Source: Echinicola soli (lineage in GTDB: Bacteria; Bacteroidota; Bacteroidia; Cytophagales; Cyclobacteriaceae). Taken from it: a stretch of DNA of 64,000 bases. Position 1 is the stretch's first letter. Every line of letters begins with the position of its first letter. The notes under the pieces were generated by a model. The model did not search any database and was not told where the DNA came from. It was given only the letters and a program-made list of their open reading frames with translations. Where the stretch lies: NCBI RefSeq assembly GCF_006575665.1, contig NZ_CP041253.1:377501-441500 (forward strand), written 5' to 3'. This document shows, piece after piece, positions 27,588 to 51,912 of the stretch. The translations under genes and the position numbers were made by a program.

Positions 27588-27672
27588 AGAGGAGTGGCAG
27601 AGTGGTCGATTGCGGCGGTCTTGAAAACCGTTGTACCGCGAGGTACCGGGGGTTCGAATCCCTCCTCCTCTG
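27588..27672 (+). tRNA. tRNA-Ser (anticodon UGA)
   Basis: An 85-base class II tRNA. The acceptor stem AGAGGAG (27588-27594) pairs with CTCCTCT (27665-27671), the anticodon loop reads CTTGAAAA giving anticodon TGA, there is a long variable arm (TTGTACCGCGAGGTACC-like), and the T arm contains GGTTCGAATCC. The CCA end is not encoded (GCA then C follows). A hairpin terminator comes 9 bases later. This tRNA stands at the left border of the accessory region, as tRNA-Ser genes often do for integrated elements. Confidence 0.95.
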
Positions 27673-27680
27673 CACAAACA

Positions 27681-28821: not shown

Positions 28822-30132
28822 CTATTCCGAAGAGTCATATTTCTTTAAACGCTCCTCTCCTTCTCCAAAATGGATGGGCTTAAGTATTCTATTCCGATAG
28901 AGGCCTTTATAATTTAAAATATTTAATAAAGAGAACTCTATCAACCAGATTCCAAACTGATTTGCCTCATATTTTACTTCACAAGGCATTTCGAGTAATT
29001 TCTTCCTTTTGTCAACTTGAGAATGAATTATTCCATTTCTAATAGAAACAAAAAGATCAATTTCATCTTGAATCTCATGACTTCCTTCTATGTACGATTT
29101 AATATTTTCTAGCTTATGATTTATCTTTCTAAGATCGATAAATTGAGATAATAACAATCTTATCTTATTTGCTGCAGACATATTTTCAGCGTCCCTTCCA
29201 GATATAATCTTTCTTTTCTCAATAATTAGCCAATTATATATAAGCTCCAAAGCTGTCTGAGTCATAATGATAGAATTTTCCATATGGCTCGGAGCAGCAT
29301 TAGCCTCTAAATACCAGTGAATTGCTAAGGTTAAAAAGCTCCTATCTTCTTCACTTGAGAATAGGTTATAAAAATTATTCCATAATCCACTTACCCCCTC
29401 CGTTGAAATATTAGAGGGCCATGAAAAAGAGAATTGGTAATGATCATTTATATAATTGGAATAGTCCGTCCAAATAATCTCATCTTCATGCACTCCGTTA
29501 ATGAACAAAGGAGAACATCTTCTTCCATTCAAAAAACTAAAAAAATTATGAAGCGTATCGAGTAATTGTTTTAAGTTTTTATGATCAAATCTTCCATTCT
29601 TAAATACTATTTCACCAGCATACAAGAAAATATACCCACCTTTCTTCTTTAAGGAATCTCTTAACTCTTTAAAGCCAGGTATTTTATCAATAGTTATGGT
29701 AAAATCCTCATTAATAAGAGTAATTCTACTATTACTAAAAGCTAGGGAACCAGAGGGCTTTTTAACTTTAACTCCTTGGCCATTAAAGTCTCTTAAATTA
29801 GGGATTGAAAAAGACAACTTCGAAACTTGAATTGACCTATCCCCCTTAACAACTTGCTTAGATGATCTCCCTTCTACTTTAGTAATATCTGATTCAGACA
29901 AATTGGTTATAAACACTGAAGAAAAAACAACCATATCAATTAAAATCAGATATTTAGCCTTAATATCTATTAAACCTGCGCCCTTTAACAAAACCCCATT
30001 AAACTTCACCCCTATTTCTGGAAACCAATTAAAATAGATTTCTCCATCTAACTGATATTTAGTTTGTTCATTTTCGTTTGAAAGATCAAATCTCCCTGTA
30101 AAAATTGAGTACACTTGATTTGGTTCTTCCAT
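28822..30132 (-). CDS. HEPN-motif protein, candidate defence RNase (ApeA-like layout)
   Basis: A 436-residue protein from the ATG at 30132 (a TTG at 30150 would add 6 residues). The N-terminal 260 residues are strand-rich and not recognised. The last 170 residues are helical and end in a HEPN-type active site, VSIRNGIIHSQ, with the R-N-x3-H signature at about residues 365-370. Upstream the TALELIYNWL and HWYLEANAAPSHMEN stretches resemble the C-terminal part of ApeA-type proteins. HEPN proteins are usually RNases used in phage defence or toxin-antitoxin systems. It lies 340 bases from the methyltransferase-helicase-nuclease operon on the same strand. The family call rests on the motif and layout only. 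Low GC sets it apart from the core genes. Confidence 0.6.
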   Translation of the reverse strand: MEEPNQVYSIFTGRFDLSNENEQTKYQLDGEIYFNWFPEIGVKFNGVLLKGAGLIDIKAKYLILIDMVVFSSVFITNLSESDITKVEGRSSKQVVKGDRSIQVSKLSFSIPNLRDFNGQGVKVKKPSGSLAFSNSRITLINEDFTITIDKIPGFKELRDSLKKKGGYIFLYAGEIVFKNGRFDHKNLKQLLDTLHNFFSFLNGRRCSPLFINGVHEDEIIWTDYSNYINDHYQFSFSWPSNISTEGVSGLWNNFYNLFSSEEDRSFLTLAIHWYLEANAAPSHMENSIIMTQTALELIYNWLIIEKRKIISGRDAENMSAANKIRLLLSQFIDLRKINHKLENIKSYIEGSHEIQDEIDLFVSIRNGIIHSQVDKRKKLLEMPCEVKYEANQFGIWLIEFSLLNILNYKGLYRNRILKPIHFGEGEERLKKYDSSE

Positions 30133-30474
30133 TAATACAGTAGGCTTCAAAGCAAATGGAATATCGTGCTATATTTCATTATTTTGATTTTTCATATAAA
30201 ATTAGATTATTCACACCTTGTAAAGCAATATTAAACAACAACATACTTTATTTATTGTAATTTTCAAAAGTTTATTCGTGCCCATTTCCTCTTATATTAT
30301 TAAGCTTTATTTTAGGAGATCTACCATCCTCAAGTAGGTTTCTTATTTTATGGGTTATTTTAAATGAAATAGCTTAAGGTAATATTCCATTTAATTTATG
30401 ATCTGAAATAATGGTGCGAAACACCTTATTACTAATAAAAAGATGTAAAAATCACGCCTAAAGTTTTTCCCTGA
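30133..30474. other. AT-rich gap between HEPN gene and nuclease gene
   Basis: About 340 bases, strongly AT-rich. It must carry the promoter of the HEPN gene and the 3' end of the upstream operon. I see no gene, no clear terminator and no strong promoter box. Confidence 0.4.
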
Positions 30475-31686
30475 TTATCTTTTTTCCAGCTTTGCAAAAG
30501 TTGGATCATAGTAATATTCGCTAATCGTTCCCTCCTTTATTTTCTCTACCATCTCATCAATGATAAATACAGGAACGAGAAACCATTCTCTTGCTTTGAC
30601 TGGTTTTCCAAAACGATCTATAATCTCAATATCAAGTCTAGCTGAGTTAAAAAACTTATGAATTAGGTTCTCAAGCTTTCCTCGATTAATGTTGGCCAAT
30701 TTATAGGTGGCAACAATTTCAACATTAGCCAGAAGGAATGTCGGGTCATTTTTTGCATTGACTATTCGCTTCTCCACTTCTCCCCCCGTCACCCCTATCT
30801 TATGAACGATATTCCTACTTTCTTTAATAGTGGGATGGTTTGACTGACTCCTTAGAACGTAAATCGTCCCACTTTCTTGATCATCAGCACTGTTTTCTCC
30901 TGAAAATAACGGTCCAGAATTGCTATCTGATATGTATCTACTTGTTTCATCCTTATACATGGCTCTAATAAGCGACCTCCACAGAATGTTACTTTCTGTG
31001 CCATTGGCGTATATTACTCTTAACCGTGCATCATCTTCACCATTAGGTGCTTTGAAAATTCCCCCAAACTCTGCTATAAGGGCTATTTGACCACCAACGA
31101 TAATGAATTGTGATTTTTTGAGTGTGGTCTTAGTAAAACCTGCGTCTTTTCTAAAGCGAATCGTTGACCTCAACCCATTGTCGATATCTTTTTTTACAGC
31201 TTTAAATAATGGTTTGAATTCGTCAAAATCTTTACAATGTGTACGATTAGCAATTTCTTCTGCAGCCCTCTTTTCAGCTCTAGTTTTGACGTGTTTCAAA
31301 TTTGTTATTGAGTTCTCCTCATTCTCATCCACACCAAGTTGAGCTAACAATTCATCATCATCTAAATATTCAGGAATTTCACTGTCTTCTTTAGCATCAG
31401 CACTTAAAAGGTTTTGGTAGTCTAAATCCTTCAGAAGGTTCCTACATTCGTCCTGTTTGCGGATTTGATCAAGCCTTACCGCATAGAGACGTTCAAAAAT
31501 ATCTTTATTCTCACCATGTTCTGGTATGCGCTCATGATCCTCTACAAACTTCTGAATTTCTTCAAATCTCGCAATAATCCGCTCCTCACGAAGCGTATGT
31601 TTGATTGGCTTTTTGACCTCAACCTCTATACCTAGTTCTGCCAACAAAGCATCATCTTCTACGGTAAGTTTCCTTTTCTTAGCCAT
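30475..31686 (-). CDS. GIY-YIG-type nuclease of a restriction-like operon
   Basis: A 403-residue protein. Residues 1-150 are charged and helical, with two copies of a short DDELLAELGV/DDALLAELGI-like motif (near residues 10 and 105). The last 130 residues form a GIY-YIG domain of the T5orf172/MUG113 kind: GTIYVLRSQS near 275, VHKIGVTGGEVEKRI near 297, and the family's late Glu/Asn region (NINRGKLENLIHKFF). Such domains cut DNA. It overlaps the helicase gene by 8 bases, so it is the third gene of a coupled operon with an MmeI-like methyltransferase and an SF2 helicase. The role as restriction nuclease of this system is inferred from order and domain. Confidence 0.75.
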   Translation of the reverse strand: MAKKRKLTVEDDALLAELGIEVEVKKPIKHTLREERIIARFEEIQKFVEDHERIPEHGENKDIFERLYAVRLDQIRKQDECRNLLKDLDYQNLLSADAKEDSEIPEYLDDDELLAQLGVDENEENSITNLKHVKTRAEKRAAEEIANRTHCKDFDEFKPLFKAVKKDIDNGLRSTIRFRKDAGFTKTTLKKSQFIIVGGQIALIAEFGGIFKAPNGEDDARLRVIYANGTESNILWRSLIRAMYKDETSRYISDSNSGPLFSGENSADDQESGTIYVLRSQSNHPTIKESRNIVHKIGVTGGEVEKRIVNAKNDPTFLLANVEIVATYKLANINRGKLENLIHKFFNSARLDIEIIDRFGKPVKAREWFLVPVFIIDEMVEKIKEGTISEYYYDPTFAKLEKR

Positions 31687-33730
31687 TAGCTTCTTCAGAT
31701 TTTAATCTAGCAAGATAGGCAATTCCTTGTGCCATACGTTGCTCCCACGGATCAGCAGATTTGATGTCAGGCAATCTACCTCTTTCTTTTTTAAACTTCA
31801 ATGCGCGTTTCGCCAACTCTCTAGCATCATCCAAAGAAAGGTTCGGATTTCGGGCAGCTATAACTTCTGCCATGGCTTTGAGACTTTGTTCCGTCATAGC
31901 TTTTGACAAGATCGAATACGCTTCACTGAACGGGTTAATGCTGTCTATCCAATCAACATCCAGCTCACGTACATCCATGGCAAATTTACGAACTCCATCA
32001 ATAAGAGCAGTACTTCCTCTTGCCTGTAATTCAGGATCATTATTTAGCACTTCTTTGGCCTTTTGCGTCAAATTTAGTGTAGCTATGGCATGTTGACGTA
32101 CAGCTTCTTGATCTTCCACATCCAGCTCTGGATATCTATCTTTAATAATTTTGCCCATCCGGATTTGTGTCAATTCTTCGGGAACGGTTTCTTCATCAAA
32201 TAAGCCTCTTTCTATTGTCTGCCTATCCTGAGCAAAAGCCGCAATTACTTCATTCAAATCCTGTTGACAAATGCGCTGTGCATCTTCACTTTTTGGTTCA
32301 GTCAGTCCTTTAATTTCAATTTGGTATTGACCATTTTCCTCATTTACACCAATATTACATCGTTCTGGATCGTATCCAGTTTCTCCATAGTAATAGTTAG
32401 GATCTGGTTCATTTTCTAACCTTTTAGGAACAAAGTTGAATTTCGGTGCAAGCACTTGCTCCATCAATAAACTAGCAGAAATTGCTTTAAGTGTATCATT
32501 AATTGCATCTGTAACTGCGTCTTCCGAGGCATCTGGTTCTGCAATTAAGTTAGTGAACCGTGAATGTGTCTTACCTGGTGCGTCTCGTGTGGCTCGCCCA
32601 ATGATTTGTACGATCTCTGTTAAGCTGGAACGATACCCCACTGTAAGTGCATGCTCACACCATATCCAGTCAAACCCTTCCTTTGCCATTCCAAGAGCTA
32701 TGATAATATCTACGTGATCACGGTTACTTTTGGCTTCCGTAAGTTTTAAGGCGGCAGAAACCTTGTTTCTTTTGGTTTGATCATCATCAACCAAATCAGC
32801 AATTTTTAATATTTTTCCATCAGTTGTTTGGATCAAATGAAAACCAGTATCAGGATCAACACCCTGCCACTCTCCTAACTCATGCATAATATGGTTCACC
32901 TCTTTGATTTTATCCCCCATACTTTCTCTTGAGTTAACATTGGGAATATGAATGATTGTCTTTTCATTCGCATCAAGGACATTCAGAATATCCTCCGCAT
33001 AGGCTCCACTATAAAAAAAATAACCAATGTTAAGAGTCTTTAGGTATTCATAACCATTGAGCTGTTCATAATAGGTATAAGTAACGGTATCGAACTTGGC
33101 TTCATCCTCTGGCATCAAAACAGGGTTAGCATCTCCTCGAAAGTATGAACCTGTCATGGCTACAATATGTACCTTATCTCTCGCAACAAACTGTTTCAAC
33201 TGTGACCCAAGTACATTGTCTTCTTCAGCACTCACATGATGAAATTCATCAATAGCAATCAAGCAATCATCAAATACTTCAACTCCATAGCGTTCTACAG
33301 AAAAACGGAAGGTAGAATGTGTGCATACCAATATTGGATCTTCACTTTCAAGAAATGATTTTACAGAATTGACCTTACTACCATCCTCTCCAAGAGAGTT
33401 ACACAGATTCCACTTAGACTTCATCTCCCAGTCGTAGTAAAAACCATACTTCGTAAGTGGCTCATTAGAAAAACTTGACCCAATGGATTTTTCAGGCACT
33501 GCCACAATGGCCTTCTTGATACCTTGGTTGTTGAGCTTATCCAAAGCGATAAACATAAGCGCTCTACTCTTACCAGAGGCTGGTGGTGACTTGATCAGAA
33601 GATACTGTTCCCCTCGCTTTTCATAGGCTCTTTCTTGCATCGCCCGCATACCCAATTCATTCGATTTGGTAGAGCTGCCTGTACTCTTATAATTAACGGT
33701 GACGGAGGGTACGGTTTTATTGTGGTTCAT
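31679..33730 (-). CDS. SF2 DEAD/DEAH-type helicase of a restriction-like operon
   Basis: A 683-residue protein. Motif I PASGKS is at residues 50-55, motif II is IAIDEFHH (DEFH at 161-164), motif III is MTGS near 192, and motif VI is QIIGRATR near 395. These give a complete superfamily 2 ATPase core of the type seen in type I/III restriction and related systems. The last 250 residues are helical and not recognised; they may bind DNA or the partner. It overlaps the methyltransferase gene upstream by 4 bases (ATGA) and the GIY-YIG gene downstream by 8, so all three are made together. Confidence 0.85.
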   Translation of the reverse strand: MNHNKTVPSVTVNYKSTGSSTKSNELGMRAMQERAYEKRGEQYLLIKSPPASGKSRALMFIALDKLNNQGIKKAIVAVPEKSIGSSFSNEPLTKYGFYYDWEMKSKWNLCNSLGEDGSKVNSVKSFLESEDPILVCTHSTFRFSVERYGVEVFDDCLIAIDEFHHVSAEEDNVLGSQLKQFVARDKVHIVAMTGSYFRGDANPVLMPEDEAKFDTVTYTYYEQLNGYEYLKTLNIGYFFYSGAYAEDILNVLDANEKTIIHIPNVNSRESMGDKIKEVNHIMHELGEWQGVDPDTGFHLIQTTDGKILKIADLVDDDQTKRNKVSAALKLTEAKSNRDHVDIIIALGMAKEGFDWIWCEHALTVGYRSSLTEIVQIIGRATRDAPGKTHSRFTNLIAEPDASEDAVTDAINDTLKAISASLLMEQVLAPKFNFVPKRLENEPDPNYYYGETGYDPERCNIGVNEENGQYQIEIKGLTEPKSEDAQRICQQDLNEVIAAFAQDRQTIERGLFDEETVPEELTQIRMGKIIKDRYPELDVEDQEAVRQHAIATLNLTQKAKEVLNNDPELQARGSTALIDGVRKFAMDVRELDVDWIDSINPFSEAYSILSKAMTEQSLKAMAEVIAARNPNLSLDDARELAKRALKFKKERGRLPDIKSADPWEQRMAQGIAYLARLKSEEANG

Positions 33731-36480
33731 GCGGTTTTCTTTTTGGCGGTCATTTTAGTATACAGTTCGAAAAGCTTTTCAAGGCGTTCAGTATCATTCT
33801 TAAATCGCCTGCCTATGTATACACGCTCCAACACTTCATCATTGCGTTCATGAGCCTGGCGTAAATCTTCAGGCATTTTATCAGCATCATATAAATCCGC
33901 TATTGTGGCTGGGAAATGTCTTTCTCGTGCCATCAGGATTTCTTCTGCGCAGGATGTTAAATCTTCCTTGTTTTTTTGAGTAAGTGATGGCAAAGGAAAT
34001 GTATTCCATCCAAGAGTATTAGAGTATCGAAAATCAGTTTTCAATTTGCCACATACTGTAGCTATCCATACAATGTGAAGCCTTGAAACTACTATTGATA
34101 GACTCCATAATGGAGCATCATACAAGGCAAATGCTGCATTGGAAACAATACTTTTATTTGGTAGGGGAAGAGAGGGTAAATAATACCGATTCTCTGAACT
34201 TACGCTTGGAATAATGAAGACTTTCTCACTGCCAGTTTGTCGCTTTTCGTCAAAGCGGTGAGGCCAAGCTGCTCCTTGTTGAGTACGAACCTTTGTGCTT
34301 GATTTTCTAAATTTCTTGATTTCTTCAAATCTATTTTCTAGAATACGATGATCATATGCTTCTTCTTTTTTATCGTCATTTATCCATATACAATACCTTA
34401 TAATACCCCGTATTGCTTCTGATGAGCCAAAAAATGGTCTAATGAAATCATCGGGAATGCCTTCCTTTTTCAAGACGTTTGCCTCATGTGCATCTAATGA
34501 CAAGTAACCACCATCTACTGGTTTACTTCCAAAATCCATTGGCGGAATATTTGACATTGGATGTGAAACTTTTTCGACCAAGATATTCTTTGCTGCAACT
34601 AGATATGGATTAATGTTTTCTGATTTTTTTTCTATGATTTCACCTTCATCGTTTAAAGAAAATAAACGTCGAATTTTAGGCGCCTTATTAGAAAAACCAA
34701 CTATAACCACAGTCACTCCTGCATTGTAGCTAGCCAGATTAGCCCATTTAAAGGATGTGTGGGCAAACGAAATTTCATGACCTGTTTTAAGAATTAGGGG
34801 CCAAAGAATTGGGACCTGTTGACCTTGACATATTGAATTTGTGGAAACAAAAGCTGAAGCTGAATTTGTATGCTTCCCGAACTCAGCCGCCTTCATGAAC
34901 CAACCCGCAACATAATCTAAAGATTTCCATGCTTTCGTCAAGTTCTTAAATATGGATTGAAGGTCAGCTTTTTGCTCGTTCGATTGCCATGTAGACCCTA
35001 AGTAGGGTGGATTACCGCATATATACGTTTCACCTCCTTCATTTTCAAAATCAATCTCTGCCTGATCCATTGGGGTACTAAATAAGTCTTCCCTAAAAAG
35101 CTTCACCGCTGTACCAGTTGGACGACATATAGAAAGCCAGTTTAGCTGAAGTGCATTACCACATGTAATCCAGTTTTCAGCATTTAGCGGGAGGAATTCA
35201 GCAAGAGCTAGTTTTTGTCCTCGGTATATAACGTTACATTGATATTCTGCAATGATAAGCGCCAGTCTGGCAATTTCTGCCGAAAAATCCCTCAACTCAA
35301 TGCCTCTGAAATTGGTGAGAGGAATCTCAGTTAAACGGTCAGCCTCCCCTCTCTTTTTATTAATCTCATGTTCAATTTCGCGTAATTGTTTGTAAGCAAT
35401 TGTAAGAAAGTTACCTGAACCACAAGCAGGATCAAACACCCGAATACGAGATATGCGTTTCCTGAGGTTGAGCAATTTTCGAGGGTTATCACCAGCTTCC
35501 TCCAATTGGGCTCTGAGGTCATCAAGGAATAGAGGGTTCAGAACTTTCAAGATGTTAGGCCGTGAGGTATAGTGCATTCCCAAGGCTCCGCGCTCATCTT
35601 CATCAGCCACAGCCTGAATCATTGATCCAAATATATCAGGGTTTATTTTCTTCCAATCGAGATTCCCGACATGTAGCAAATAAGACCTCGCAATCTTCGT
35701 AAACTTGGGTGTTTCTGTAGATCCGGAAAACAAATCGCCATTTACATAAGGAAACTTATTTGCCCAGTTTTTTACATTTTGATCAGCACGTTCAGCCTGT
35801 TTTATATCCATCGCTCGGAAGATCTCGCCAATAATCTCATGAGTATCCGAGGCATCACTGGCGCTCATTTGTTGCACCGTAGTGGTAAAAAGACCATCTC
35901 CACCAAATATATCCGTATCCTCAGCGAAAAAGCAGAAAATTAGGCGGGCAAGAAAGTGATTCATATCATGGCGCCGCTCTGCTGTTGCCCATTCTGGATT
36001 ATGCCGAAGAAGTTCAATATACAGCTTATTCAAACGGCTTGTGGCCTTAATATCAAAGGCATTTTCACGAATTTGTTTGACCGTGCTGATTCCTGCCAGT
36101 GGTAGAAAAAAGCCAAAGTGGTCATGGAAACTATGAAATTCACATGCGACGGTTTCTCCACTATTCAAATCTTCAGCCTGAAACTCCTTTCCGTCTGTAG
36201 CTAGAATGAACTTGGCTTTGGCCTTGGTTGTGGCCGAGCTTTCCTTTAGACGTTTAAGAGTTTCTATAACCGTACCTTCATCACAAACCGCTATATGAAT
36301 ATTGTTGTGCTGAAGCACCCCTCCTTTAATATCAGATTTGTTATTATTACCTGTTTTGAGGCGCTTTATAGTCGTTGGCTTATTGCCAAAAGCTTCCAGA
36401 AATAAATACGGAAATTCAACCGGATCAAAATCTTGTTCCGAGAGTAATGATATGGCCTCTTCAATTTCTACTGCATTCAT
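33727..36480 (-). CDS. MmeI-like class I adenine DNA methyltransferase without the nuclease motif
   Basis: A 917-residue protein laid out like MmeI-type enzymes: an N-terminal region, a helical connector (residues 160-310), the methyltransferase core, then a target-recognition part and a C-terminal helical part. Motif I FDPACGSGNF is at 349-358 and the catalytic motif IV NPPY at 490-493, as in N6-adenine methyltransferases. In MmeI itself the N-terminus carries a PD-(D/E)xK nuclease; here the corresponding stretch (residues 40-75, ending HNNIHIAVCDE) lacks the E-x-K pair, so it should not cut DNA alone. That fits with the separate helicase and GIY-YIG genes in the same operon doing the cutting. 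First gene of the operon, ATG at 36480. Confidence 0.82.
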   Translation of the reverse strand: MNAVEIEEAISLLSEQDFDPVEFPYLFLEAFGNKPTTIKRLKTGNNNKSDIKGGVLQHNNIHIAVCDEGTVIETLKRLKESSATTKAKAKFILATDGKEFQAEDLNSGETVACEFHSFHDHFGFFLPLAGISTVKQIRENAFDIKATSRLNKLYIELLRHNPEWATAERRHDMNHFLARLIFCFFAEDTDIFGGDGLFTTTVQQMSASDASDTHEIIGEIFRAMDIKQAERADQNVKNWANKFPYVNGDLFSGSTETPKFTKIARSYLLHVGNLDWKKINPDIFGSMIQAVADEDERGALGMHYTSRPNILKVLNPLFLDDLRAQLEEAGDNPRKLLNLRKRISRIRVFDPACGSGNFLTIAYKQLREIEHEINKKRGEADRLTEIPLTNFRGIELRDFSAEIARLALIIAEYQCNVIYRGQKLALAEFLPLNAENWITCGNALQLNWLSICRPTGTAVKLFREDLFSTPMDQAEIDFENEGGETYICGNPPYLGSTWQSNEQKADLQSIFKNLTKAWKSLDYVAGWFMKAAEFGKHTNSASAFVSTNSICQGQQVPILWPLILKTGHEISFAHTSFKWANLASYNAGVTVVIVGFSNKAPKIRRLFSLNDEGEIIEKKSENINPYLVAAKNILVEKVSHPMSNIPPMDFGSKPVDGGYLSLDAHEANVLKKEGIPDDFIRPFFGSSEAIRGIIRYCIWINDDKKEEAYDHRILENRFEEIKKFRKSSTKVRTQQGAAWPHRFDEKRQTGSEKVFIIPSVSSENRYYLPSLPLPNKSIVSNAAFALYDAPLWSLSIVVSRLHIVWIATVCGKLKTDFRYSNTLGWNTFPLPSLTQKNKEDLTSCAEEILMARERHFPATIADLYDADKMPEDLRQAHERNDEVLERVYIGRRFKNDTERLEKLFELYTKMTAKKKTA

Positions 36481-36818
36481 TCCTTGTGATATCTCTTAAT
36501 ATAAATCTGCAAAGGTAAATTTTTATTTAAAATTCGTTTTTAAAAGTAAAAAATAAAAGCCAAAATCATATGGCTAAATTCAATTGCGCCCTTCCTTTTT
36601 GGTGTTTTAACAAAATTATCCTCCTACACAATCCTCTTAATATACATCGAATATTTGTTAACTCTCTTTGGAATTATTGGGGCTTTTAACAAAAAAGAGT
36701 AATAAAAGAAAAACCACAGTGTTAAATGCCACTTGCTTGATTTATAAGCAAACTTATTTTTGTTTAAATCAACTCAACCGAACGGTTACAGCGTTAAATT
36801 CAAAAAAAATAATCACTT
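36481..36818. other. AT-rich promoter region of the methyltransferase operon
   Basis: About 340 bases of high AT content. It lies between the start of the methyltransferase gene (read leftward) and the end of a small gene read in the same direction. It should hold the operon promoter. A short plus-strand frame (36668-36898) overlaps the next gene and is not supported. Confidence 0.4.
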
Positions 36819-41214: not shown

Positions 41215-42390
41215 CTAAATCTTCTTTCCTCTTTTCCGCTTCTTCTTTCTCTTTTTAGGTGTTTCTCCTACCTCCCCAGCAGTAGGAGCAGGCCTAAGCA
41301 ACAGGTCAAGAATATTAATGGCACTGCCAATAACTTGATCACCAAGGTCAATTTCTTTTCGATCTTTTGGTGCTGCTCCTGCTGGTGTTGAAGCTGTATT
41401 TTGACCGATTCCAGTTTGGAATTCATTTTCACCCCGCATTGATAATTGGTCTCGATCTGTTCGTTCTGTCTGTCCAGCTTTCTGCTGATGTGCAGGAGAC
41501 TGTCCTGCATCTTCGGAATGTAGCCCATGAACTCGAGTTGTTTTTTGACCATTTCCTGATAACCCTCCCGGGTATTTTGATGTTGTTCTTGTGTTTGCCT
41601 GGCCAATTGCTTGGCGATCTCTAGCTTGCTCATAGTGTAGTATATTTGCGATGTTCTTCCATTTGAATTGGTTGCCCAAGGATTGCCCTTTGGCCTTGAA
41701 GCCATCATAGCAGTAGGCCACTCCTGATACCCTGCCGGTACTGGCCTGGTTGAACAGTAGATTGGCGCCAGCTGCCTCGACTTGTAGGATAAAGTCTTCC
41801 ATGGTATTGGTCTGGTTCAAGGCCTCTCCTACTATTTGTTGGAGCACCATTTTCTTGGAGGGTTTTCCGGTCCTCATCACCATTTCGATTTCATCCTTAT
41901 TGGGTGCCTTGACTTTGGCTTCCTTGCTGCTTTTTACTTGTTGAAGCCCATATTTCTTTTCCAGTTTCCGTACCAGGCTTTCACTCTTTCGATAGTTGTT
42001 GCTGTCAGAAACCACCGATCCATCAAACCGGTTTCTCAGTGCCAACAAGTGGCAGTGGGGATGGTCGGCATCATGATGCCTGAAAATAACATAGGCATTG
42101 TCATCGAAGCCCATGCCTTTCAGGTACTCACCCGCAATGGACATCATTTTTGCATTTGATATTTTTTCCTCCTTGGCAAAGCTTAGACTGACGTGGTAGG
42201 TGTTCCGTTTTAGCCGGGGATTCATACTCTTCATCAACTCCACTTCTTTCTGTACCATTTCCCTGTCCAGGCTACTAAAGTTTGTTTCCAGGATCTCCGC
42301 TCTTTTTGACTGCTCCCGGACAAACATCTTTTTGATATTGTAATCCAATGCTCCCATAAAGTTTTTTCCGATGGACTGTTTAGCGATCAT
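41215..42390 (-). CDS. Relaxase / mobilization nuclease (MobA-type)
   Basis: A 391-residue relaxase from the ATG at 42390, which overlaps the end of mobC by 11 bases. The relaxase domain is in residues 1-190: a Tyr in ALDYNIK (Y18) as likely nicking residue and the metal-binding His triad in HHDADHPHCHL (H110, H112, H114). From about residue 260 on the sequence is a low-complexity polar tail (TRTTSKYPGGLSGNGQKTTRV and so on) that ends in a run of Lys/Arg (KKRKKKRKRGKK). Part of that tail DNA also encodes another protein in a different frame. It nicks oriT to start transfer of the element; transfer would need a helper element's secretion system. Confidence 0.88.
   Translation of the reverse strand: MIAKQSIGKNFMGALDYNIKKMFVREQSKRAEILETNFSSLDREMVQKEVELMKSMNPRLKRNTYHVSLSFAKEEKISNAKMMSIAGEYLKGMGFDDNAYVIFRHHDADHPHCHLLALRNRFDGSVVSDSNNYRKSESLVRKLEKKYGLQQVKSSKEAKVKAPNKDEIEMVMRTGKPSKKMVLQQIVGEALNQTNTMEDFILQVEAAGANLLFNQASTGRVSGVAYCYDGFKAKGQSLGNQFKWKNIANILHYEQARDRQAIGQANTRTTSKYPGGLSGNGQKTTRVHGLHSEDAGQSPAHQQKAGQTERTDRDQLSMRGENEFQTGIGQNTASTPAGAAPKDRKEIDLGDQVIGSAINILDLLLRPAPTAGEVGETPKKRKKKRKRGKKI
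41268..41633 (-). CDS. Small coiled-coil membrane protein nested in the relaxase gene
   Basis: A 121-residue frame lies entirely inside the 3' part of the relaxase gene, same strand, different frame. It starts at an ATG (41633), has a long coiled coil (residues 20-90; EQHQNTREGYQEMVKKQLEF, then SKLDRQ-type heptads) and a C-terminal transmembrane helix (LTLVIKLLAVPLIFLTCCLGLLLLL). These are real protein features, while the relaxase frame above it is low complexity. Genes nested in relaxase genes are known from ColE1-type plasmids (mbeB, mbeD). By analogy it may help relaxosome or membrane docking. A longer upstream frame with a Met at 41708 is less likely. Confidence 0.65.
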   Translation of the reverse strand: MSKLEIAKQLARQTQEQHQNTREGYQEMVKKQLEFMGYIPKMQDSLLHISRKLDRQNEQIETNYQCGVKMNSKLESVKIQLQHQQEQHQKIEKKLTLVIKLLAVPLIFLTCCLGLLLLLGR

Positions 42391-42724
42391 GGAGCAGCAG
42401 TTTGATGATTTGATCCAGTTTTGTAGAAAGGGCATCAATGGCCTTCATCCTATCTGCAGACACCTCAAATTTTGAATTGAGGTGTCTTGCAATCTGGTTG
42501 ATATTGTTGCCAATTCTTTTGAGCTCCACATAGGCCTGCCTGTCCACTTTGGCTACCTTTGCCTTGGGCAACCTGCTTTTGAATACGCAGGACCTGACCA
42601 CGTCCGCGGCCGGCATCGCTGCCACTTCGCATAAACTTCCCAACAACCTCACCTCCTCTTCGGTCATGCGGAAAGTAAACTTTATATTCCTCTTCTGATC
42701 TTCGGGTTTCTTTGGTCTTCCCAT
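42380..42724 (-). CDS. mobC: MobC-family relaxosome accessory protein
   Basis: A 114-residue protein from the ATG at 42724. The N-terminus is basic (MGRPKKPEDQKRNIKFTFRMTEEE), the middle has a ribbon-helix-helix-like part and the end reads ELKRIGNNINQIARHLN, the usual MobC signature. MobC helps the relaxase open the oriT. Its gene overlaps the relaxase gene by 11 bases and is preceded by a large inverted repeat that may be oriT. Confidence 0.87.
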   Translation of the reverse strand: MGRPKKPEDQKRNIKFTFRMTEEEVRLLGSLCEVAAMPAADVVRSCVFKSRLPKAKVAKVDRQAYVELKRIGNNINQIARHLNSKFEVSADRMKAIDALSTKLDQIIKLLLHDR

Positions 42725-42757
42725 GAGTGAAATGAACGGAGTGAATTTCAACCTGAG

Positions 42758-42810
42758 CGAAGCGAAGCAAGCCGTTTTGGTAAGACCAAAACATGGCTTG
42801 CTTCGCTTCG
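42758..42810. repeat. Inverted repeat upstream of mobC, candidate oriT
   Basis: Left arm CGAAGCGAAGCAAGCC then GTTTTGGT (42758-42781), right arm ACCAAAAC then ATGGCTTGCTTCGCTTCG (42785-42810): 24-base arms with a two-base bulge and a 3-base loop. It lies 34 bases before mobC. Position directly ahead of a mobC-relaxase pair is the usual place of oriT. No nic site was identified. Confidence 0.6.
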
Positions 42811-42825
42811 ACTTATAAAACGTTG

Positions 42826-43689
42826 CTACCTTCGCACGCCAACGCTTTTTGACTTTCGGTGGTAATCGTTTAGATCCTTATACCCTAAATATTTACCTGA
42901 TTGGTCAATGCATTGACTGAAGTCTTTAAGCAATCTTTTTGTCCACACCTTGCCCTGTATATCATTGTCCAGGTAAAGGTTTACCCGTGGAAAATCTACT
43001 ATAATCTTTCTTGCCGCATCCATGTTGGACAGGGAATTCAGCACCAGAAAGTCATCGGGTTCGACATCTTTTTGATTGCGCTCATAGAAGCTGAGCAGGT
43101 CAAAAATCCCTTCGAACATATGGAGGGTTTTGCCTTCCCCTGGATAGTAGCTGATGCCCTGCCCACTGCTGCCTTTCCAATAGGCATTCCGGATGGCCCA
43201 GCCGTTCTCGTTTTTGTTTCCAATCCCGAAATACTTTTTGTCCCCAATGGAATAATACACCTCCATACAAAACCTGGATGCCGTCTCGGTGCTGACCTTC
43301 CGATGAAGAAGGTAGTCCATTAAGGCCGGGTTACTTCCAATGGCTTTGACCGATCGGATTTCTATTTTATGCTCACGCTCCTTTTCGAAGGATACCTGTG
43401 GGTGAAAAGAAAAAGAGTTACCAGTAATATCTTCGATGTAATGAAGGGCATCGGAAACGGACAAGCCTGGTTTCAATTTCATGACCAGGTCAAGGACCTT
43501 TCCCCCATAATTGTTGTCCCCAAAATCAATCCATAGGTTCTTGGAGGCACTGACCTTAAAGGAAGGTGTGTTTTCTTTCCTGTAGGGTGAATGATAGAAA
43601 TAACTGTCCCCGGAAACCTTTGAGGGCCTGATGCCAAGCTTTTCCAGAAAAGCAATAATGGACAGCTCGCTTGCTTGTTTGATGTTCAT
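42826..43689 (-). CDS. Primase-like protein with toprim domain
   Basis: A 287-residue protein. The N-terminal part resembles a CHC2 primase zinc finger (YFYHSPYRKENTPSFKVSASKNLWIDFG), but the Cys residues are replaced, as in many mobile-element primases. A toprim domain follows: GIFDLLSF near residue 200 with its Glu, and LYLDNDIQGK near 243 with the Asp-x-Asp pair. It should make primers or help start replication of the element. It lies between mobC and the iteron array that precedes the VapE gene. Confidence 0.85.
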   Translation of the reverse strand: MNIKQASELSIIAFLEKLGIRPSKVSGDSYFYHSPYRKENTPSFKVSASKNLWIDFGDNNYGGKVLDLVMKLKPGLSVSDALHYIEDITGNSFSFHPQVSFEKEREHKIEIRSVKAIGSNPALMDYLLHRKVSTETASRFCMEVYYSIGDKKYFGIGNKNENGWAIRNAYWKGSSGQGISYYPGEGKTLHMFEGIFDLLSFYERNQKDVEPDDFLVLNSLSNMDAARKIIVDFPRVNLYLDNDIQGKVWTKRLLKDFSQCIDQSGKYLGYKDLNDYHRKSKSVGVRR

Positions 43690-43725
43690 GGTAAGGTTGT
43701 TAAATGGTGAAAATGTAAAATATGT

Positions 43726-43929
43726 CTACTACAACTACTACATACTACAAATCGCTCCCTAATGAATATTGGAAGGTGTTTTTAGGGAAGTTTGTAGTGT
43801 AGTACCTTTTTTCTGGTGCTACTACAGGCTACTACAAGTAGCTGTGTAGTAAGCTGTAGTAGTTTTCTCTTTCAACCGCCCACTACACTTAAACCACTGT
43901 ATATCTAATGGTTATAACCTTTGTAGTAG
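43726..43929. repeat. CTACTACA iteron array, candidate replication origin
   Basis: About eight copies of the octamer CTACTACA or its complement TGTAGTAG occur in 204 bases: direct copies at 43726-43733 and 43735-43742 (and the variant ATACTACA at 43742-43749), at 43819-43826 and 43829-43836; inverted copies near 43793-43804, 43844-43851, 43856-43863 and 43922-43929. The block 43819-43863 forms an inverted repeat with two octamers per arm. The array lies between the primase and VapE genes. Confidence 0.7.
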
Positions 43930-45119
43930 GTAGTACCCTGATTTTCTACTTTGACATAATACCCCTTTCTGGGATAGGCAGAGGAATGGTGGCCACGCTT
44001 GGAGCACTGCTCAAAGCCCAATCTTTTAAGCGCCTTTCCGACCTCCTGTATGCTGATCCTGACCTTTCCATCTTCAAGACCGGTCAACATGGTGACAATA
44101 TCCGATGCGGTCATAAATGGATCTTCCTTGGTCCCAGGAACCAGGTATTTCTGGACCAGCTCAAACTCCACGGTAAGGGAACTGAAAAAGACATTGGCTC
44201 TTTCATTCTCCTCTATTTCTTCCCTAGTCATTTCAAACCGATAACCGGAATGCAGGAGCTGATAGGCCTGGGACCAGACAATGTTGATGTTAATGTCCTT
44301 TTTGTAGTCCCAGTCAATTCCCTTAAGGGGAAAGCAGAGCCAGCGGACACTCCCTGTTTCATCGATCAGGAATTCGGCCTTGTTGGTACTGCCCCAGATT
44401 GATGCCCTTCTTGGCTCCATCTTGGCCTTGCGATCATAGGGGTGACGAACTTTCACGGTTGACTTGCTCATCAAGGTTTTCTGCGCATTGATCTCTGCCC
44501 GGGAGAGGGTGGACAGTTCATCCTGAATAATCCCGAAATTCTGGCAAAGGGCAATTAAACTGTCCTTGTCCACTGAGATATTCTCGGCATAATACTCTCT
44601 TAGTTCCGGAGGGACCAAAAAGCGTGTTAGCGTAGTCTTCCCGGTATTCTGTTTGTCCTGGATAAAGATGAACGCCTGCTTGTTGTAATAATCGTCCCGT
44701 ATACTGCAGGCCACACAACGCACCAGCCATTTCTTGAACTGTACATTAAACCTATCCTGGTCTTCGGCATGGATATAGGAAGCAAAGCGGGCGATATAAT
44801 CGCCATGCTCTGCCTGGTTCCATAGTTCCTTGTGCTTCTCGAAATAGGCCACAAAGGGATCTGTTGAAGGGATATAGTCCGAACTGAGAAAGGAGGATAT
44901 TTCACCCTCCGAAGTCCGGTAACCTCCTGCCCTGGCTTCTATGTAGAGTGTATTGGGATTGACCGGATGGTAAGGGTTGGTTTCTTTCTCACTGGCAAAC
45001 ACCTCGTTCAGTACAACGTTATTGATGAAATCATACTTGGACATAAGATACTTGATCATTCGTACCGTGGAAGAATTCGAGCCGCCGTCAAGGTCTTTGA
45101 CTTTTTTATGGGTTCTCAT
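43905..45119 (-). CDS. VapE-type (virulence-associated E) helicase/ATPase
   Basis: A 404-residue protein from the ATG at 45119 (MRTHKK; an ATG at 45137 would add 6 residues). The VapE domain holds the P-loop QNTGKTTLTRFL near residue 172 and a DELS Walker-B-like motif near 206. The last third has a small winged-helix-like part. Such proteins serve with a primase in replication of phages and integrative elements, often as SF3-like helicase. It follows an excisionase-like gene and precedes the iterons and primase, in the order seen in Bacteroidota mobilizable elements. Confidence 0.85.
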   Translation of the reverse strand: MRTHKKVKDLDGGSNSSTVRMIKYLMSKYDFINNVVLNEVFASEKETNPYHPVNPNTLYIEARAGGYRTSEGEISSFLSSDYIPSTDPFVAYFEKHKELWNQAEHGDYIARFASYIHAEDQDRFNVQFKKWLVRCVACSIRDDYYNKQAFIFIQDKQNTGKTTLTRFLVPPELREYYAENISVDKDSLIALCQNFGIIQDELSTLSRAEINAQKTLMSKSTVKVRHPYDRKAKMEPRRASIWGSTNKAEFLIDETGSVRWLCFPLKGIDWDYKKDININIVWSQAYQLLHSGYRFEMTREEIEENERANVFFSSLTVEFELVQKYLVPGTKEDPFMTASDIVTMLTGLEDGKVRISIQEVGKALKRLGFEQCSKRGHHSSAYPRKGYYVKVENQGTTYYKGYNH

Positions 45120-45229
45120 AATTCTGCACTTAATCATTTGAAAATAAAGGCAGAAACAGTACTTTTATAATGAACAATAGGAAATACTGTTTCTGACAAA
45201 AGACTATGCAGGCTTTGACCGGCCTGCTT

Positions 45230-47426: not shown

Positions 47427-48581
47427 ATGAATATAGAATCAGAATACTATAGCAACCTTAGCAAGATAATAGCTTCGGCAAAGTTTAACCTACCTGAGAA
47501 TTACCTTGAAAAGCTCCGTGAGTCTTTACAATCATTGCAGACAATTGACTTTGATAATATTTTAAAGAATTTACCCGCCACAAGTAAATCAACGTCCTCG
47601 ACTGCAATAAAAAAACTGAAGCAGGCTCATGAAGCAGAAAATTTAAATCTTGTATTAGGTGCAGGGATTTCTAGGCCCTATGGTTTGCCAACTTGGGATT
47701 TTCTATTACAAAAATTACTTCTTAAAACAATAGAAGAAACACCAGAAAAAGCCGTAGTTCTCTCCAAAGTCTTTTCTAAAGTTTTTAACCCAAGTCCATT
47801 AATAGCAGGAAGATACCTTCAGGGGTCTCTATTTAATTCTAAAGACAAGAATAAATTCGAAAAGGAAGTAAGAAAAACATTATATGAGTCTTTTGATAAA
47901 AATGCAGCTTCTCCAATAATGGACGAAATCGTAAAGCTGTGCGCCGCACCAGGAAATAGCCGGAACCTTGATGGAATAATAACCTATAACTATGATGATA
48001 TTATAGAAACAAAAATCAAGGAAAAGAAAATGGACATACCATTTCAGTCAGTTTACGGTCAAGCGGTTGATCCAGATAACAGAGCTTTAGCGATATATCA
48101 TGTACATGGTTTTTTACCACAAGAAGGAGAAATCAATGAATTAAACAATATTACACTTGGTGAATATGTCTATCATGAGCAGTACAGCAATATCTACAGT
48201 TGGAACAACATTGTACAGATAAATAAATTTAGGGATAAAACTTGCTTATTCATTGGAACATCTTTATCCGACCCAAATATTAGACGTCTACTCGACATAG
48301 CCAACTCTCAAAAAAAAGGAAGAAAATTCCATTATATAATAAAAAAGAAATCATCGAAAGTTTGGGTCCGAGAAAGACTTAAGCAAATTCTCGATGATAA
48401 CCCACAAATATTCAACGAAAAGGTCAAAGCAAAACTTGACTTTGATGAAACAGTTAGCCTTCTGATTGAAATTCAAAATAGATTTGAAGAGAAAGACTCT
48501 GAATCGCTTGGAGTCAAAACTGTGTGGATTGATGATTATGATAAGGATATAGCAAATATTTTAAGGAAAATAAGAGAATAA
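47427..48581 (+). CDS. SIR2-family protein, candidate NAD-depleting defence effector
   Basis: A 384-residue protein with a SIR2 domain. The NAD-binding loop LVLGAGISRPYGLPTW is at residues 75-90, the TYNYDD motif at 186-191, the catalytic His in IYHVHG (H227) and the FIGTSLSDPNIRRLL segment at 275-289. These match the SIR2 domains that cleave NAD+ in phage defence and abort infection. The 70 residues in front are helical, and the rear part (about 300-384) is charged and helical. No partner gene (such as a HerA ATPase or an Argonaute) is next to it, so it would act alone. It lies in an AT-rich part of the accessory region, 8 bases from a group II intron remnant. Confidence 0.8.
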   Translation: MNIESEYYSNLSKIIASAKFNLPENYLEKLRESLQSLQTIDFDNILKNLPATSKSTSSTAIKKLKQAHEAENLNLVLGAGISRPYGLPTWDFLLQKLLLKTIEETPEKAVVLSKVFSKVFNPSPLIAGRYLQGSLFNSKDKNKFEKEVRKTLYESFDKNAASPIMDEIVKLCAAPGNSRNLDGIITYNYDDIIETKIKEKKMDIPFQSVYGQAVDPDNRALAIYHVHGFLPQEGEINELNNITLGEYVYHEQYSNIYSWNNIVQINKFRDKTCLFIGTSLSDPNIRRLLDIANSQKKGRKFHYIIKKKSSKVWVRERLKQILDDNPQIFNEKVKAKLDFDETVSLLIEIQNRFEEKDSESLGVKTVWIDDYDKDIANILRKIRE

Positions 48582-50358: not shown

Positions 50359-50570
50359 CAATTAATGAGATAGGCAATAGTATTAGGGAGCGTCGCAAAA
50401 TGTTGGGCATAACACAATCAGACCTTGCGGAAATGGCCCAAATCAGCATCAACACTCTCTACAAAATCGAAAGAGGTGAGGCAAACCCATCGATAAGGGT
50501 CTTGAACAAAATTGCCAATATCCTGGGGTTGGAAATTTCCATTAATGTCAAAAAATTAACTGATCAATGA
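50355..50570 (+). CDS. hipB: HipB-type antitoxin / repressor
   Basis: A 71-residue XRE-type HTH protein from the ATG at 50355 (a TTG at 50307 would extend it into the operators). The domain is RERRKMLGITQSDLAEMAQISINTLYKIERGEANPSIRVLNKIANILGL. Such proteins repress their operon together with the toxin. It overlaps the next gene by 4 bases (ATGA) and is the first of three coupled genes hipB-hipS-hipT. The short form lacks the C-terminal tail seen in some HipB. Confidence 0.88.
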   Translation: MTINEIGNSIRERRKMLGITQSDLAEMAQISINTLYKIERGEANPSIRVLNKIANILGLEISINVKKLTDQ

Positions 50571-50896
50571 AAAGGGCCAAGGTATTAAGAAACGGAGAAT
50601 TGGTAGGCTGGCTGACCAAGGAAGGCCCTGAAAAGTATACTTTTTCATATGACCAGACCTGGTTTGATGATCCGCAAAAACCTGCGCTTAGTCTTACTTT
50701 GCCCAAAAGCCAAAAAGATTATCGATCAGAGCACCTATTTCCTTTCTTTTTCAATATGCTTTCAGAAGGCGTAAACTTAAAGCTCCAGGCCCGTCAATAC
50801 CAAATTGATGAATCCGATTATTTTGGACTTTTATTGCTCACCGCTGACAAAGAGACCATTGGCCCCATCACTATCCACCCCATAAATGAACCATGA
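50567..50896 (+). CDS. hipS: HipS-type protein (HipA N-terminal subdomain 1)
   Basis: A 109-residue protein that equals the N-terminal subdomain 1 of HipA and is separate from the kinase: RNGELVGWL near residue 6, YDQTWFDDPQKPALSLTLPKSQ near 25-46 and HLFPFFFNMLSEG near 55. In known tripartite HipBST systems the HipS subunit is the one that neutralises the HipT kinase. It overlaps both hipB (4 bases) and hipT (4 bases), so production is coupled. Confidence 0.85.
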   Translation: MKRAKVLRNGELVGWLTKEGPEKYTFSYDQTWFDDPQKPALSLTLPKSQKDYRSEHLFPFFFNMLSEGVNLKLQARQYQIDESDYFGLLLLTADKETIGPITIHPINEP

Positions 50897-51912
50897 TTAA
50901 GATTACCAACTGCCCTGGCACACTAGCACCCGATCACGAGACTTATAGTACCCGTTGTATTAGGCATATGTTTGAAGGTAAAAAAACAAGCCACTTTTTA
51001 CCTTACCAGAGCCATCAGTCCAATAATGACCAGGAAATGGCAGCATTGATGGATAACCGGAAACGGATATCCATTTCCGGAGTCCAGGAAAAATTATCTG
51101 TAATTTGGGATAAAGGAGTAATCCGCTTGACCAAAGCAGGTGAACAGGGCACTTATATCCTTAAACCAATCCCTAGGGATTTGGAACGGGTGGGACAGGT
51201 CCCTGCAAATGAGCACCTGACCATGCAGATCGCCAAGCAAGTATATGGATTGACAACCGCTGAAAACGCCTTGATATTCTTTCAAAATGGAGAACCCGCT
51301 TATCTCACCAAAAGGTTTGATGTATTGAAAAACGGAAAAAAATTAGGGATCGAGGATTTTGCCACACTAGCCGGTAAAACAAAGGAAACCGATGGTGATG
51401 AATTTAAATACAATTACAGCTATGAGGGTATTGCAGACCTCATTAAACAATATGCCACTGCTGCTCCCATAGTTTTGGAAAACTTCTATAAATTGGTATT
51501 GTTCAATTTCCTGTTTTCCAATGGAGATGCCCACCTAAAAAACTTCAGCCTTTTGGAAACCCCTGCAGGAGATTACCAATTGAGTCCCGCCTATGACCTT
51601 ACAAATTCCCAGCTCCATGTAAAAGATCCGGAACTCGCACTAAAAGACGGTCTTTTCAAAAACGATTATGAGACCGAAAGCTACAAGGCCAATGCATTTT
51701 ACGCCTATGACGACTTCTATGAATTTGGTATAAGAATAGGGCTATTAGAATCACGAACTTCGAAAATCTTGTCGAACTACATCGCCGAGCAAACCGAAGT
51801 TAAAACATTAATTTACAGGAGTTTTCTCAATGAGGAAGCCCAAAAGATATATATGCAGACGTACCAACAGCGGCTGAGGTCGTTGAATTACTCCTTTAAT
51901 ACGAAATTGTAG
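50893..51912 (+). CDS. hipT: HipT-type Ser/Thr kinase toxin
   Basis: A 339-residue kinase of the HipA family but without the N-terminal subdomain (that is HipS here). The Gly-rich loop carries Ser-Ile-Ser in RISISGVQEKL (S60 and S62), like the SIS motif autophosphorylated in known HipT. The Lys of YILKP (K91) is the ATP-binding Lys, NGDAHLKN at 210-217 is the catalytic loop with D212, and SPAYDLT (D235) is the metal-binding Asp. HipA/HipT kinases phosphorylate aminoacyl-tRNA synthetases (GltX or TrpS) and halt growth. The target here is unknown. Confidence 0.88.
   Translation: MIKITNCPGTLAPDHETYSTRCIRHMFEGKKTSHFLPYQSHQSNNDQEMAALMDNRKRISISGVQEKLSVIWDKGVIRLTKAGEQGTYILKPIPRDLERVGQVPANEHLTMQIAKQVYGLTTAENALIFFQNGEPAYLTKRFDVLKNGKKLGIEDFATLAGKTKETDGDEFKYNYSYEGIADLIKQYATAAPIVLENFYKLVLFNFLFSNGDAHLKNFSLLETPAGDYQLSPAYDLTNSQLHVKDPELALKDGLFKNDYETESYKANAFYAYDDFYEFGIRIGLLESRTSKILSNYIAEQTEVKTLIYRSFLNEEAQKIYMQTYQQRLRSLNYSFNTKL

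Follow-up and report, generated by a model that had tools for sequence, protein, structure and literature searches.

The window analysed here is a stretch of 64,000 nucleotides (nt) of Echinicola soli DNA (positions 377501-441500 of a single-contig genome of 5.55 Mb), and it holds a three-gene operon encoding an MmeI-type methyltransferase, a superfamily 2 (SF2) helicase and a GIY-YIG protein. This operon is a restriction-modification system of the OspHL35III/YeeABC type, an already described and common kind. In the reading favoured here, to which as a whole model a probability of about 0.78 is given, the three proteins would act as an ATP-dependent, Type I-like restriction system that is built from other parts. 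The methyltransferase has lost the nuclease residues of its MmeI-like relatives, and a block of it that contains the target recognition domain (TRD) is exchanged between relatives as a cassette.

Organization and conservation of the operon

The genes and their main motifs are located as follows.

33727..36480, minus strand: MmeI-type gamma-class N6-methyladenine (m6A) methyltransferase, nuclease residues lost (DnmA/YeeA-like, OspHL35III-type M), 917 amino acids
35413..35436, minus strand: methyltransferase motif I, FDPACGSG, residues 349-356
31679..33730, minus strand: SF2 helicase/translocase (YeeB-like), 683 amino acids
33566-33586, 33236-33250 and 32582-32599, minus strand: helicase motifs PPASGKS, DEFHH and GRATRD
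30475..31686, minus strand: T5orf172/GIY-YIG nuclease (YeeC-like), 403 amino acids
30538-30870, minus strand: GIY-YIG nuclease domain, residues 273-383

According to the listing of open reading frames (ORFs), the methyltransferase and helicase genes overlap by 4 nt and the helicase and GIY-YIG genes by 8 nt, just as an initial annotation, made from the sequence alone, had described. Its MmeI layout with intact motifs I and IV is likewise confirmed, with matches to all five MmeI models of Pfam (MmeI_N, MmeI_hel, MmeI_Mtase, MmeI_TRD and MmeI_C) and with FDPACGSG and NPPY in place. The helicase matches DEAD and ResIII above and Helicase_C below the cut-off, and among solved structures its profile found DHX58 alone, as a weak match. 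The third gene product matches T5orf172 and MUG113; compared with solved structures, its profile gave no match at an E-value of 0.1.

Scanning a genome collection with the helicase alignment returned at least 560 relatives, the best 80 of which were analysed, and a scan of viral contigs added 43 loci. Synteny was counted where the locus left room (3 kb upstream in the genome loci), which set aside 6/80 genome and 14/43 viral loci on the upstream side and 2/80 and 1/43 on the downstream side. The methyltransferase lies upstream of the helicase in 74/74 of these genome loci, 29/29 viral loci and 6/7 Bacteroidota genome loci, and the GIY-YIG gene lies downstream in 78/78, 39/42 and 7/7, the viral loci without it being L169, L173 and L178. 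Since nearly all of the related loci that were examined share this gene order, the operon is more than a chance arrangement, and the conservation of the triplet for which the initial annotation had proposed a check is real. The helicase and GIY-YIG genes adjoin in 124 of 125 loci. The trio is spread over several phyla, the hosts of the best 80 helicase relatives including Bacteroidota, Proteobacteria, Firmicutes and others. A search of the plasmid collection with the helicase gave 264 matching records, and in 154 of these the match covers 80% or more of the helicase; one relative with a helicase 64% identical carries the record label "restriction/modification system component YeeB". Within the window's phylum the helicase occurs in 8/296 genomes, its own included (one of the eight matches is a 61-residue stretch), and the MmeI methyltransferase domain was found in 0/10 other genomes of the genus.

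The residues expected to matter for catalysis are kept. G273, Y276, K296, G298, R307, E339 and E367 of the GIY-YIG domain are identical in 123/123 proteins. Of the helicase motif residues, all but positions 52 (123) and 380 (112) are identical in at least 127/128.

Some loci depart from the full trio. One Bacteroidota genome locus (L054, genome G293) has helicase and GIY-YIG genes and no methyltransferase match within 8.6 kb upstream. In Pseudosulfitobacter and Acinetobacter plasmids (hits H54-H57 and H59-H69) the helicase match is partial, covering 16-76% of the query; the Pseudosulfitobacter plasmids among them keep a full-length methyltransferase, beside which VapC and HEPN genes lie in the two plasmids inspected closely.

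Loss of the nuclease site in the methyltransferase

36004..36480, minus strand: N-terminal domain of the methyltransferase, residues 1-159, MmeI_N kept, catalytic D/E/K replaced by G54/A64/C66

The cutting residues of MmeI are D70, E80 and K82 (PMC4833311). In a family profile alignment with the MmeI structure (5hr4) they correspond to G54, A64 and C66 of the window protein, and the same three residues occupy the catalytic D, E and K columns of intact MmeI-like relatives, while the MmeI_N domain itself is retained (Pfam, E 5.6e-32). The nuclease residues are present in 0/105 methyltransferases of helicase-containing loci (that of the window among them) versus 8/8 unlinked MmeI-like proteins; the latter are strong MmeI-type proteins of related genomes with no helicase or GIY-YIG gene in the fetched regions, two of these regions being contigs only 4.5 and 7.7 kb long. 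The methyltransferase motifs are kept with few exceptions among the 105 linked proteins, the N of NPPY in 105/105 and a final Y or F in 104. The absence of the N-terminal PD-(D/E)xK pair, which the initial annotation had suspected, is hence borne out: a complete nuclease motif in this part of the protein was looked for, and none is present.

These residues bear on one of the alternatives, an ordinary Type IIL enzyme, in which the MmeI-like protein would cut alone and its neighbours would be unrelated. The five-domain layout is indeed common to MmeI and the window protein, with the family profile aligning over positions 9-908, and the PADLOC profile PDLC03598 (REase_MTase_IIG) gives 965 bits. 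MmeI, however, cuts with its own PD-(D/E)xK domain, whereas the window protein has G, A and C at the catalytic positions and lies beside helicase and GIY-YIG genes in a trio that recurs in several phyla; DnmA of Bacillus subtilis alone was without endonuclease activity in earlier work cited in PMC7261158. A true Type IIL enzyme is ruled out by the absence of the nuclease residues, and this very improbable reading is refuted by sequence, barring a nuclease site in the N-terminal domain that was not recognised as such. In the PADLOC check proposed at the outset, the methyltransferase is recognised, as Type IIG despite its lost nuclease residues, and the partners are essentially unlabelled (at most 28 bits for the helicase and at most 14 bits for the GIY-YIG protein).

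Relation to known systems

The trio is described in PMC4752239 with the prototype OspHL35III and with several hundred members in REBASE (Blow et al. 2016, legend of S4 Fig). Compared by description, OspHL35III has the same architecture as the window trio, its recognition site likely being different. The operon has what defines this type, namely a nuclease-less MmeI-like methylase with TRD, a separate SF2 translocase gene and a separate GIY-YIG (T5orf172) gene. In B. subtilis, dnmA(yeeA)-yeeB-yeeC shows the same order of nuclease-less MmeI homologue, SF2 helicase and T5orf172 protein (PMC7261158, PMC9973331), and the B. subtilis control genome matches the MmeI_Mtase and T5orf172 models, a comparison through two Pfam models and not directly between proteins. 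YeeB and YeeC of B. subtilis are reported to miss C-terminal stretches relative to Vibrio crassostreae (PMC9973331). Because the triplet matches these named systems, the novelty that had been suggested for it is not upheld, and the window adds one more member of a recorded trio. Nor is the nuclease type unusual, as had been supposed: members of the large OspHL35III-type subfamily typically have their GIY-YIG nuclease as a separate protein.

AchA6III likewise combines an MmeI-like methylase without nuclease motif with a separate translocase and nuclease; its partner, however, joins a PLD-family nuclease and the translocase in one protein, whereas the window has a GIY-YIG protein (PMC4752239). 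As a mechanistic model, CglI and the R2H2 helicase-nuclease (PMC5737866) are of interest, in which a separate DEAD helicase-like ATPase and a nuclease form one nucleoside triphosphate-dependent restriction complex, although the CglI nuclease, unlike that of the window, is of the PLD type, its endonuclease subunit also carrying a B3-like DNA-binding domain. The likeness to Type I (HsdRMS) enzymes lies in a motor and cutter that serve a methylase, in variable target recognition and in the accessory genes of some operons. Unlike in HsdRMS, a single chain carries methylase and specificity, the motor and the nuclease are separate chains, the cutter is of the GIY-YIG type and an asymmetric site is expected; accordingly, Pfam did not find an HsdM/HsdS/HsdR composition in the window operon. 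In PMC7261158 and PMC9973331, the idea of a Type I-like trio is credited to Morgan 2009, and the reference given for defence islands is Makarova 2011.

Membership in BREX was rejected, as a Pfam scan of 20 window proteins found no PglZ or BrxC and the NCBIfam PglX models stayed far below their cut-off, and so was membership in DISARM, with no DrmA-type partner among the same proteins. A related alternative is a non-cleaving, BREX- or DISARM-like exclusion, in which methylation would mark self DNA, the helicase would block phage replication and the GIY-YIG protein would bind DNA. The similarity of the methyltransferase to DISARM DrmMI (93 bits, PADLOC) and, weakly, to PglX/BrxX fits such a system, as does the statement in PMC9973331 that T5orf172 is largely uncharacterized with predicted DNA-binding functions. 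The missing PglZ, BrxC and DrmA-type matches among the scanned window proteins and the GIY-YIG residues identical in all 123 proteins stand against it, and the exclusion reading appears improbable.

Exchange of the specificity cassette

33976..35028, minus strand: exchangeable specificity cassette, residues ~485-835, with motif IV NPPY and TRD; boundaries approximate, drawn from relatives
35002-35013, minus strand: methyltransferase motif IV NPPY, from residue 490, inside the cassette

Protein distances were compared among 102 loci with three full-length genes, window included (100 after removal of near-duplicates), the clade near the window comprising 86 loci. In this clade, the Spearman correlation with helicase motor distances is 0.70 (bootstrap mean, 0.59-0.79) for the dead N-terminal domain and 0.15 (-0.01 to 0.30) for the methyltransferase Pfam domain (residues 326-607). 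The N-terminal domain distances correlate with the helicase motor at 0.72, versus 0.50 with the spacer of the same protein, 0.17 with the methylase domain and 0.27 with the C-terminal domain. In sliding windows the correlation with the helicase breaks at about residue 485, just before NPPY, and returns at about residue 835.

The all-pairs set (5151 pairs from the 102 loci) contains 20 pairs, non-independent of one another, in which the two helicases share at least 95% identity. In 20/20 of these the methyltransferase frame reaches 85% identity or more, and in 18/20 the cassette stays below 60%, the two exceptions being near-duplicate loci. For six pairs, among the most extreme, DNA identity along the methyltransferase gene falls from ~70-95% to ~45% and then rises again, with sharp breakpoints. 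Saturation was considered as an artefact behind the lost correlation and rejected: it fails as the sole explanation because similarly divergent windows, residues 781-840 (mean distance 0.36) and 61-120 (0.40), differ in their correlation with the helicase, 0.07 versus 0.54. From these comparisons, residues ~485-835 of the methyltransferase are taken to be swapped as a cassette between relatives. Such a fast turnover of the cassette next to a near-constant motor and cutter is expected under selection for new restriction specificities.

Specificity diversity in the MmeI family is already known (PMC3874165), and a change of specificity by domain movement in Helicobacter is the subject of PMC3983042; the open-licence literature searched, as far as its texts were available, contained no report of cassette exchange or a cargo slot in the trio family.

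Predicted recognition site

In the alignment with MmeI, the contact positions are occupied in the window protein by K814/D816 (MmeI 806/808), R818/A782 (810/774) and K653 (645). According to the rules given for MmeI, position 6 is read as G by K-D and position 4 as a purine by R-A, and K645 goes most often with C at position 2 (PMC4833311). Applying these published rules to positions 2, 4 and 6, and none to positions 1 and 3, predicts the site 5'-NCNRAG-3', methylated at the A. K-D, E-R and R-D account for the 806/808 pair in 98/102 loci. For comparison, DnmA of B. subtilis methylates GACGAG (m6A; PMC7261158), a site with A at position 2, where the window residue predicts C. Cassette swaps at reproducible positions together with MmeI-code-type residues suggest that specificities in this family are predictable and exchangeable as blocks.

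Proposed mechanism

The split restriction system that the initial annotation had proposed, with a helicase motor and a separate GIY-YIG cutter, is a supported reading whose anatomy is borne out. The methyltransferase would read an asymmetric site of about 6 bases and methylate one adenine on one strand, which marks self DNA. At an unmarked site it would load the helicase, which would use ATP to travel along the DNA and carry or activate the GIY-YIG protein, and the latter would cut the unmarked DNA. The dead N-terminal nuclease domain is kept and probably belongs to a constant frame where motor and cutter dock, with specificity changing through swaps of the block from motif IV to the TRD. Complex formation, docking, translocation, cleavage and the site are steps that we infer. 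Prior work in favour of restriction comes from V. crassostreae, where deletion of the dnmA or the yeeB homologue is reported to have made cells more sensitive to certain phage subclades, with no such effect for other subclades (PMC9973331).

Several observations weigh against this mechanism. The B. subtilis trio did not restrict plasmid transformation, its deletions left infection by three phages unchanged and phage genomes show no depletion of the DnmA motif (PMC7261158, PMC9973331); its authors call it a relic (PMC9973331). The lack of endonuclease activity of DnmA alone belongs here as well, and a successful cleavage assay for any family member was not found in the parts of the literature searched. 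In the distance data, frame residues 271-360 (0.23-0.33), which show little variation, and 841-900 (0.27) track the helicase weakly, and the 20 high-identity helicase pairs are non-independent. Moreover, the genome sample leans towards near relatives because its loci are the closest 80 of at least 560.

Extending the conclusion drawn for B. subtilis (PMC9973331) to the window, the methyltransferase would be an orphan epigenetic enzyme, and helicase and GIY-YIG protein would no longer restrict. Plasmids with a full-length methyltransferase and 16% of the helicase matched, e.g., Pseudosulfitobacter NZ_CP087061.1 (hits H12 and H66), are in line with such decay. However, the three reading frames of the window are full length with conserved catalytic residues, and neither invariant GIY-YIG residues nor a cassette turnover with little-changed motor and cutter would be expected of a relic, which makes a relic unlikely here. 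Rather, that specificity turns over fast while motor and cutter stay nearly constant is an argument for restriction by many present-day members, contrary to the B. subtilis relic reading.

Within the favoured restriction mechanism, a further idea has about an even chance of being right. The system might be a modular machine whose parts evolve at three different rates: a chassis that stays constant (dead nuclease domain, methylase core, helix bundle, motor and GIY-YIG cutter), a swapped cassette at ~485-835 and a changeable slot for guard genes, the dead nuclease domain serving as docking site of the motor. Docking is suggested because the N-terminal domain distances follow the helicase (0.72) above the rest of its own protein, a correlation of distances that alone is no proof of physical contact.

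Accessory genes between methyltransferase and helicase

The gap between methyltransferase and helicase exceeds 250 nt in 55 of 118 loci with a measurable junction (e.g., L066, L110 and L153). As other genes usually fill this gap, the earlier statement that the three genes must work as one unit was too strong. The 55 open-junction loci contain 59 slot ORFs, 48 of which were scanned, and 8/55 have no same-strand ORF starting with ATG by the criterion used; a few of their methyltransferases are fragmentary (e.g., L051, L086 and L130), and L154 and L155 are near-duplicates. Among the 48 scanned proteins were 7 with SLFN_AlbA_2, 6 RhuM, 3 DUF1016_N, 1 AbiEii, 1 FRG and others. The content differs despite near-identical helicases, e.g., 0 nt in L064 versus 403 nt in L066. 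Judged by these loci, the junction is a slot for changing accessory genes, while the helicase-GIY-YIG junction stays closed. The slot of the window operon is empty and holds no cargo. Genes embedded in Type I restriction operons have been described for prrC (PMC3874165) and tgvAB (PMC11411939).

Genomic environment

36510..36517, minus strand: candidate -7 box TACCTTTG, ~30 nt before the methyltransferase ATG, read by eye
27588..27673, plus strand: tRNA-Ser(TGA), at the left boundary of the variable, low-GC region containing the operon

The box TACCTTTG is a possible promoter of the operon, as it fits the Bacteroidota -7 box consensus, TAnnTTTG. Promoter and terminator scans gave counts close to those of shuffled sequence (27 vs 28.6 and 6 vs 5.8, respectively).

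The variable region reaches to about 52 kb and has a guanine-cytosine (GC) content of 0.35-0.40, or 0.44 over its mobilisation genes, versus 0.44-0.47 outside. It holds an IS1595 transposase, a MobC-relaxase-primase-VapE module, a SIR2-like gene and a HipA pair. Its left flank (27453) is present in 11/11 genomes of the genus and its right flank (52639) in 10/11, two of them weakly, own genome included in both counts. The flanks lie 12, 63 and 110 kb apart in three single-contig relatives versus 25 kb here, and in two other single-contig relatives the right-flank match is located elsewhere in the genome. As the distances differ between relatives, the site is variable, and the tRNA-Ser region is likely an insertion hot spot. 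The last 10 nt of the tRNA-Ser gene have no exact repeat elsewhere in the 64-kb window.

Just downstream of the operon lies a minus-strand gene (28822-30150, GC 0.32) for a 442-residue protein with a sub-threshold match to HEPN_Apea alone (E 0.088). It was considered as a fourth component and rejected, being 324 nt apart and having relatives in 3/98 genomes, own included. The mobilisation and replication module (41215-45137, minus strand) contains relaxase, MobC, Toprim/CHC2 primase and VapE-like genes, and no integrase was found among the window proteins scanned with Pfam, a subset of the ORFs. The SIR2-like protein (47427-48581, plus strand) matches SIR2_2 and, in PADLOC, ThsA (60 bits) and LmuA (49 bits), and its gene is a second candidate defence gene of the variable region. 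Further to the right (50567-51912, plus strand), HipA is split into separate N-terminal and C-terminal genes that overlap by 4 bases.

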